Part shown: positions 5,130 through 6,337 of the stretch, piece by piece
Position numbering within the stretch: position 1 is the stretch's first letter
How the letters are laid out: each line of letters starts with the position of its first letter
Source: Siminovitchia terrae
GTDB taxonomy: Bacteria > Bacillota > Bacilli > Bacillales > Bacillaceae_C
Direction of reading: 5' to 3'
Assembly: GCF_003605405.2 (NCBI RefSeq)
Contig: NZ_QYTW02000036.1
Span: 8,166 to 45,875, forward strand
Length of the DNA: 37,710 nt
Program-made: the position numbers and the translations under genes
The notes under the pieces: model-generated
The model's input: the letters and a program-made list of their open reading frames with translations, nothing else
Database searches by the model: none
What the model was told of the DNA's origin: nothing

Positions 5130-6158
5130 TTGAAAGTAGACATGTTTGATTTCAACCTGCCTGAGGAGTTGATTGCGCAGACACCGCTGGAAAATCGATC
5201 CTCAAGCAGGTTGATGGTGTTAAATAAGCAAACGGGTGAGGTTAAACACGAAACGTTCAGGAAACTGATCGATTATTTGAATCCTGGCGACTGCCTTGTT
5301 TTAAACGATACAAAAGTACTGCCTGCCCGTTTGTTCGGAATAAAAACGGACACAGGGGCAAAAGTTGAAGTGCTTTTGCTTAAACAAACAAATGAAGATC
5401 GTTGGGAGACACTTGTCAAGCCGGCAAAGCGGGTTAAAAAGGGGACTGAAATCTCTTTTGGTGACGGCCGGCTGAAAGCAGTTTGCACGGGGACGGAAGA
5501 CCATGGCGGCAGGCTGTTTGAGTTTCAATATGAAGGTATCTTTTATGAAATTTTGGATTCACTTGGGAAGATGCCCCTTCCTCCATACATAAAAGAACAG
5601 CTTGAAGATCAAGGCAGATATCAGACGGTATACGCTCGAGAAAGGGGATCAGCTGCTGCTCCGACGGCCGGTCTCCATTTTACAAATGAAATACTTGAAT
5701 CATTGAAAGAAAAAGGGGTACACGTGGCTTTTGTTACCCTTCATGTAGGACTTGGAACATTCAGGCCTGTGAGTGTGGATAGTGTTGAAGATCATGATAT
5801 GCATGCCGAGTTTTACCGCATGTCGAAGGAGACGGCTGCCCTTCTGAACCAAGTGAAAAAGGATGGGGGCAGAATCATTTCGGTAGGAACTACTTCTACG
5901 AGGACACTTGAAACGATTGCAAGGGAGAATGGAGGTTTGTTTAAAGCTGGGAACGGCTGGACTGACATTTTTATTTACCCGGGATATGAATTCCGGGCCA
6001 TTGACGGGCTGGTTACGAATTTTCATTTGCCAATGTCTACACTGATCATGCTTGTCAGTGCGTTGGCTGGACGTGAATATATTCTGTATGCATACGAAAC
6101 CGCTGTTCAAGAGAAGTACAGATTTTTCAGTTTCGGGGATGCTATGTTGATTATTTAA
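5130..6158 (+). CDS. queA: S-adenosylmethionine:tRNA ribosyltransferase-isomerase QueA
   Basis: QueA transfers the ribosyl part of S-adenosylmethionine to preQ1 in tRNA, giving epoxyqueuosine. The 342 residues equal the Bacillus length. Conserved segments include [17 protein letters not shown] at the N terminus, [31 protein letters not shown] and FSFGDAMLI at the end. The start is TTG 5130, with GGGAGG 12 bases upstream; the family usually begins MKVD-F-FDLP, which fits this start and not the ATG at 5142. tgt, the enzyme acting one step earlier, lies downstream. The stop codon is contributed by the first bases of repeat copy B. Confidence 0.96.
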
Positions 6159-6337
6159 CTTCATTCGATAGAAGTCTCCCACTTCTGTAAGTGGTGAGAT
6201 GAAAGCATATTGGTAATACATTCAGTGGGGTTTCAAACCCCGGCTGAAATAAAGTTAAAGCCTCCGGCGGATGCCACAGATTTTGTCGAGCCAAGCTCGA
6301 TAAAATCTGGGCGCAAATACGCCAAGGCGCATTTGAT
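6154..6337 (+). repeat. Structured intergenic repeat, full copy B
   Basis: A 184-bp unit between queA and tgt, from TTTAACTTCATTC to GCATTTGAT. It contains four clear hairpins: a stem around CTCCCACTT/AAGTGGTGAG with outer TTCAT/ATGAA; ATTCAG..GGGG/CCCC..CTGAA; AGATTTT..TCGAGC/GCTCGA..AAAATCT; and CAAAT..CGCC/GGCG..ATTTG. Copies A, C and D share the same order. TTGAT precedes the left edge and ends the right edge. It has no credible ORF. It lies inside an operon, so it should be transcribed between the two queuosine genes. Its nature is unresolved: non-autonomous mobile element or transcribed structured RNA. Confidence 0.88.

Follow-up and report, generated by a model that had tools for sequence, protein, structure and literature searches.

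The window, by which we mean the whole stretch of 37,710 nucleotides analysed here from the 5.3-Mb draft genome of Siminovitchia terrae (the host, G000), contains queA and tgt, a T-box leader (23209-23438) upstream of an ORF at 23498, aspS (ending at 26555), a 6S RNA (26886-27073) and a small zinc-ribbon-like ORF ending at 37508, for which no Pfam match was found. Three copies of a structured repeat, B (6154-6337), C (26596-26791) and D (37539-37710, all counted with their targets), lie on the plus strand among these features and share one order of hairpins (Table 1); the 6S RNA starts 95 nt after copy C. Other interspersed repeats occur at 7900-8180 and 9425-9499 (with many matches in genome G002 and several in G005), and a further repeat pair within the window, 71% alike, joins 8006-8067 with 29865-29926.

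A first-pass annotation of the window had described four same-facing copies with a single order of hairpins. This description holds for B, C and D, with the restriction that D is incomplete at the contig end, but not for copy A. An N precedes base 1 of the window, and the window start repeats, across this N, the end and the 3' flank of a complete copy immediately upstream, at C30:7837-8031; because of this duplication, copy A is read as the product of an assembly join (at C30:7837-8200, L159) and not as an independent copy. N-flanked repeats are also present in the TnpB loci L043 and L038. The base changes quoted for the last stem are present in the sequence. Direct placement after a stop codon, claimed for three copies, is true of queA (through the TAA of TTTAA), whereas aspS ends 40 nt before the target of copy C and the zinc-ribbon-like ORF 30 nt before that of copy D, with a hairpin between.

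From 5' to 3', copies B, C and D consist of the TTTAA target, a stem P1 enclosing a loop hairpin, the core GCCTCCGGCGGATGCCACAGATTTT, and the stems P3 and P4 followed by AT. P1 is formed by TTTAACTTCATTCAGC with GCTGAATTAAGTCAAA in copy C (..AAAGTTAAA in the others) and the hairpin inside its loop, in copy C, by AGAAGTCTCCCACTTC..GTAAGTGGTGAGATGAATGCA. In P3, which carries an apical hairpin on top, GCC-A-CAGATTTT pairs with AAAATCTG-GGC, and P4 (CAAATACGCCAAGGCGTATTTG, then AT) runs into the element end ATTTGAT. The two ends of the element (C..CATTTGAT) do not form inverted repeats, and the hairpins P1 and P4 are subterminal. Together with short flanks (26590-26795), copy C folds far better than its shuffled versions, both as RNA (z -4.77) and as DNA (z -6.00).

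Table 1. Positions of the repeat copies and of their parts in the window
Feature	Position	Strand	Remark
Copy A	1..60	+	limited to the 3' part, with the apical hairpin of P3, the P4 hairpin (37-58) and the end CATTTGAT (53-60)
Target TTTAA of copy B	6154..6158	+	includes the stop codon of queA (TAA)
Copy B, full element (C...GAT), queA-tgt spacer	6159..6337	+	
Loop hairpin, copy B	6170..6207	+	similar to left ends of TnpB elements
25-nt conserved core GCCTCCGGCGGATGCCACAGATTTT, copy B	6260..6284	+	
P4 right-end hairpin, copy B, then AT	6314..6335	+	
Target TTTAA of copy C	26596..26600	+	
Copy C, full element, aspS-6S RNA spacer	26601..26791	+	
Loop hairpin, copy C	26612..26649	+	
Core, copy C	26702..26726	+	
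P4 right-end hairpin, copy C	26768..26789	+	
Target TTTAA of copy D	37539..37543	+	
Copy D, cut by contig end	37544..37710	+	departs from the family after about 37689
Core, copy D, two substitutions	37643..37667	+	

Copy number and taxonomic range

Cores were counted at up to three mismatches, using the reversed pattern as control. The host genome holds 533 of them (302 + 231), which bears out the high copy number that had been proposed from the window alone, and elsewhere the counts are 146 (G003), 45 (G001), 13 (G005), 19 (G032) and 5 (G040). At the same threshold, G002 and G004, which belong to the same genus as the host, have 0 cores each, and the reversed pattern was found in none of the eight genomes counted. 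A larger count of 591 copies, obtained with a pattern for the left end, was discarded because, at up to 4 substitutions, about half of the matches to this pattern (in 846 kb) correspond to the other arm of the palindrome.

Searching with the whole element gives matches in 15 of 60 genomes, one of them the host, and an exact search for the core returned at least 51 loci; the titles of the records listed name Bacillus, Siminovitchia, Psychrobacillus, Ureibacillus, Lysinibacillus, Fredinandcohnia, Alkalihalobacillus, Sporosarcina, Bacillales and, in one case, Arthrobacter. This last record (L126, titled Arthrobacter beigongshangensis) has the Bacillales repeat, and is perhaps a mislabelled or mixed assembly. 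Across Bacillales, the 25-nt core and four helices are conserved. The core matched no Rfam family in the window, in five loci in each of two scans (with weak matches allowed) or in seven host stretches (at gathering level), and no published description of this repeat family was recognised in our search of the openly accessible literature. A self-splicing intron or ribozyme was considered and rejected, given this lack of an Rfam match and the position of the copies: from a set of 131 nhmmer hits, three at contig edges could not be placed, and among the 128 that could, 126 lie between genes and two inside naive ORFs.

Insertion sites and strand

Filled and empty sites could be compared in 36 cases, most of which (including those of the copies C30:7837 and C) are not clean at the joint, due to divergence of the flanks, while copy D gave no comparison. 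At five loci with clean empty sites, the flanks align up to the joint, the element lies directly 3' of (T)TTAA and no clear target duplication was found. On contig C1 of G000, near 87,928 (minus strand), TTTTAA, the element and TGGTGACC stand against an empty site with TTTTAA and TGGTACCC, and near 157,129 (minus strand; one and the same site as that near 124,071, minus strand, on G003 contig C26) ATTAA, the element and TGAAGG stand against an empty ATTAATAAAGG. On the plus strand of the same G003 contig, TTTAA, the element and CGTGATAT at 83758 correspond to an empty TTTAACGTGATAT, and TTTAA, the element and TATTGCAATA at 176307 to an empty TTTAATATTGCAATA. The queA-tgt site of copy B is filled in G000, G001 and G003 and empty in G002, G004 and G005, with a TAA on both sides that leaves a small ambiguity at the joint. 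At L104, the element lies within a T-box-like leader and has AGAGTGGT on both sides; this one locus contrasts with the five clean sites, and a flanking duplication was rejected on this ground.

The sequence preceding the element is exactly TTTAA at 86 of the 99 G000 copies with a recognisable start, the frequency of this 5-mer being 0.0024. Pairing with the 3' arm of P1 does not dictate this choice as a strict rule, since G000 copies in which the arm reads GTCAAA are still found at TTTAA in 25 of 27 cases.

The random genome-wide orientation that the first-pass annotation had envisaged as the opposing case is not what we observe: among the 131 nhmmer hits from eight contigs (seven of G000, one of G003), 124 are on the strand that is rich in G and has most of the coding sequence; leaving out the duplicate copy A, the figures are 123 of 130. 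The placement after plus-strand genes, stressed by the same annotation, appears mostly secondary to this strand preference. The 5' neighbouring gene is co-oriented in 95 of 126 intergenic copies, a share similar to that of coding sequence on the majority strand in these contigs (0.68-0.85), and where this neighbour is opposed (31 copies), 24 copies are still on the majority strand (binomial 0.0017). Copies at most 60 nt from the 5' gene are co-oriented in 48 of 52 cases, as would fit a target containing a stop codon combined with selection against insertions in promoters. Additionally, on a 5.49-Mb contig of G032 (another genus), where the GC skew switches at about 0.3-0.7 Mb and again at about 3.0-3.8 Mb, the local skew is followed by 11 of the 13 best-scoring copies and, when all cores are placed by skew regions, by 16 of 19. 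Given that both the 124 hits and these 16 cores are on the skew-biased strand, orientation follows replication. Such a strand pattern is expected from insertion into the lagging-strand template, according to PMC6006769.

The filled and empty sites, the fixed target without clear duplication, the 533 cores and the strand bias all uphold the earlier suggestion of a non-autonomous mobile element. More specifically, we consider it probable that the repeat is a gene-less miniature transposable element, moved in trans by a transposase of the IS200/IS605 type (HuH, Y1). In this mechanism, the element strand would be exposed as lagging-strand template during replication and would then fold, a transposase reading the hairpins would make one cut 3' of TTTAA and another at the ATTTGAT end, and the excised strand would be rejoined 3' of another TTTAA. 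The cut sites may be marked by two pairings, one between the terminal ATTTG and the CAAAT found 5' of P4, the other between TTTAA and the 3' arm of P1. Co-transcription following insertion behind genes would be a by-product.

Covariation and the nested RNA

The repeat may be transcribed as a structured RNA, which was the other option given by the first-pass annotation. A different view is that the repeat is mainly a transcribed regulatory RNA (in 3' UTRs or operon spacers) which is kept by selection, its mobility being old and incidental. We find this rather unlikely, despite the position of copy B inside an operon (queA-tgt) and the covariation of the helices. The latter was analysed in 67 aligned 3' domains out of a set of 73; domains with Bacillaceae-1-like motifs or without a recognisable right end had been set aside beforehand. 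In this alignment, 94.4% of the cells pair (92.2 when shuffled), changes on both sides occur at 10 of 31 pairs (3.0 when shuffled) and the covariation score reaches 0.075. Shuffled alignments give 0.038, none of 500 scoring as high as the real one, and slid versions of the structure stay at or below 0.023; over the latter the tested structure is favoured, having been drawn by us from the same sequences. Compensatory examples are GATGTC..GGAC in place of GATGCC..GGGC, and the change from AGA/TCT to GAT/ATC in L255; four double changes are found in the CAAAT/ATTTG part beside the element end, and P4 covaries, with one of its pairs (columns 85/96) unpaired in 45 of 66 cases. Further pair types, however, show no excess (23 versus 20.8 shuffled, 52 of 500 as high), which speaks against a regulatory RNA.

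The pairing of P1 into the flank also bears on this question. In the 96 of 120 elements that passed the inner-stem cut, 4.885 of 6 flank pairs form, against 3.740 (sd 0.087) when shuffled, part of this excess being due to register, given that the P1 registers vary by 1-3 nt. All six pairs are present in 44 of the 96 elements, five in 29 and fewer in 23 (three of which have none). Variants that keep the pairing include TCTAAC/GTTAGA (L287), TATAAC/GTTATA (L295), TTTCAC/GTGAAA (L101) and TTTATC/GATAAA (L345, by eye), and mismatches are seen in L054 and L067 (TTTAAC/GTGAAA). At an apparently orthologous site (L086/L257, flank similarities of 86 and 85%), P1 persists although its bases differ, as a regulatory RNA would have it, but L257 may be a replaced copy. 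Because the P1 arm does not choose the target in G000, we read the flank pairing as kept after insertion, either by selection or by palindrome correction. Correction of quasi-palindromes by template switching can produce covariation in P1 without any selection, and for this reason the P1 covariation is not accepted as proof of an RNA function. A regulatory RNA is further disfavoured by the presence of the repeat differing between close species, by core numbers that range from 0 to 533 within one genus, and by an orientation that tracks replication more closely than it does the neighbouring gene. 

The comparison with Rfam, suggested at the outset, had a divided outcome. The copies in the window have no match to RF01690 (Bacillaceae-1) or to any other family, whereas longer copies in other genera contain RF01690, either inside P3 or directly 5' of the core, with covariance-model scores over the gathering cut-off. 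This RNA has been in print since 2010 (PMC2864571), and PMC4333381 proposes that its reverse complement binds CsrA, calling the strand uncertain. RF01690 matches number from at least 24 to at least 149 in each of seven copy-rich genomes (at least 64 in G000), all of these being lower bounds with 150 candidates scored per genome; among 14 named control genomes, matches were found in Bacillus subtilis only. When 30 of these loci were fetched, 19 had a core on the same strand within 170 nt (compared with 1 of 60 control windows), 13 of them at one offset and six at another. The RF01690 loci lie in the element in 19 of 26 cases outside the host and in none of four in the host (L321, L328, L335, L342), and within 140 kb of host contig C12 the only match likewise falls outside any copy. 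One species has the module and the other lacks it at the orthologous sites L079/L267 and L255/L274. Bacillaceae-1 also occurs outside the element (L316, L319, L321, L324, L325, L328, L331, L335, L336, L342 and L343), often, as judged by eye, within other repeat families. Absent from the window copies and occurring elsewhere, partly in other repeats, RF01690 is distinguished from the element itself as a passenger module.

It is conceivable, although we regard it as unlikely, that a Bacillales-wide family of gene-less single-strand transposons serves as a vehicle for structured RNA, in which the core RNA would be recognised by host machinery, the 3' arm of P1 would re-evolve with the target flank to which it pairs, and Bacillaceae-1 would, in several genera, be carried into UTRs and operon spacers. 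If this were true, a transposon would disperse a regulatory RNA, namely Bacillaceae-1, a published candidate for CsrA binding on its reverse strand.

Candidate mobilisers and related elements

The search for a partner that could move the element in trans centred on the loop hairpin and on the transposase genes of the host and its relatives. Used alone as query, the loop hairpin retrieved four plasmid records (E 1e-5, 2e-3, 0.09 and 1, each weak singly). In the matches from Mycoplasmatota and Methanomethylovorans, a gene annotated as 'transposase' or TnpB starts 85 or 34 nt later; in a Clostridiaceae plasmid the hairpin is followed by what we read as a TnpB-like remnant, and in Paenibacillus larvae no gene is annotated beside it. 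In the host, the TnpB loci L038 and L046 begin with the loop hairpin (with at most one substitution), both at TTTAT, and for L039 and L043 the start, as judged by eye, is at TTTAAC. As far as its sequence goes, the loop hairpin resembles the left ends of TnpB elements. It is absent or eroded in many copies of other genera, which counts against the explanation that we prefer.

The nearest transposase candidate, and the only one that shares an end, is the decayed locus L034, with TTTAA on the left and GCGTATTTGAT on the right (by eye), which had no match among plasmids. Neither the four PF01797 matches in G000 nor 29 further PF01797 loci sampled from the 60 genomes (over a hundred other matches falling outside the sample) include an intact TnpA whose ends both match, and no autonomous partner emerged from the PF07282 matches in the host, nor from searches of plasmids and phages with the element or its halves. 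Among viral contigs, the core occurs in one (L345), where the 501 bases read contain no transposase. In L047 (1647-1661, minus strand), the first 15 nt of the repeat are fused to a TnpB fragment that keeps the TnpB right end, perhaps as the product of a one-ended or cross-mobilised event.

Transposition alone would not lead one to expect a conserved internal core, and one reading that would account for it takes the core, together with P3 and P4, as a TnpB guide-RNA scaffold acting in trans, with the guide after ATTTGAT and TTTAA as the adjacent motif, so that TnpB would restore lost copies. The layout is suitable, with TTTAA on the left and the scaffold on the right, and TnpB genes are present in the host, some of which lie, as judged by eye, at TTTAAC. 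Nevertheless, in the TnpA/TnpB loci scanned, the core was found only in separate copies of the repeat and not at right ends (where a diverged scaffold is possible), and no Rfam guide-RNA family was matched in the window or in the five loci of each of the two Rfam scans, which makes this reading very unlikely.

In favour of a REP-type repeat mobilised by a RAYT (TnpA-REP) protein are the very large copy number, the hairpins and the mostly intergenic location, and the host has one RAYT-like gene, at L033, so named from its sequence. This gene is, however, flanked by GGGGTCTGACCCC-type palindromes with no copy of the element in the 1.6 kb around it, and both the strong orientation bias and the fixed TTTAA target are at odds with such a system, to which we give hardly any credence. 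The RAYT-like gene and its palindromes (L033, about 1300-2040), the latter also present in L032, apparently constitute a second repeat system.

We thus return to a gene-less element, probably moved by an IS200/IS605-type transposase, for which several known systems offer comparisons. According to PMC6006769, IS608 and ISDra2 have subterminal hairpins, guide pairing with tetranucleotides at the ends, a target 5' of the left end and a preference for the lagging-strand template, all of which recall the element; in contrast to them, it lacks a transposase gene, and its putative left guide lies 3' of the hairpin, where theirs lies 5'. The repeats bcr1-bcr3 of the Bacillus cereus group, as outlined in PMC6542083 and PMC3446304, are similarly intergenic, 100-400 bp long, MITE-like and present in many copies, often in UTRs or operon spacers and with a short T-rich motif. 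From the description given there, they are set apart as repeats of the B. cereus group, by their motif (TTTAT, against TTTAA here) and by their numbers (up to 130 copies of bcr1).

As a class of mobile element, the repeat is closest to the PATEs of Haloquadratum. These, as portrayed in PMC3119063, have near-terminal palindromes akin to those of IS605-type elements, no terminal inverted repeats and no target duplication, are too short for a transposase and outnumber the transposons. The element differs from them in its occurrence in Bacillales, its 25-nt core conserved between genera, its TTTAA target, its 533 cores in one genome and the Bacillaceae-1 RNA nested in its relatives, and no parent element was found in the loci examined. 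What is new is therefore the conserved core, the TTTAA target, the range within Bacillales and the RNA passenger outside the host.

For the Bacillaceae-1 RNA, these results provide a mobile context in several genera, which may help to explain its high copy number there. The 533 cores in a 5.3-Mb genome additionally constitute, for Bacillota, a dense natural record of insertion at replication forks with a strand bias and, for those annotating copy-rich genomes, the element offers an explanation for hundreds of structured spacers.
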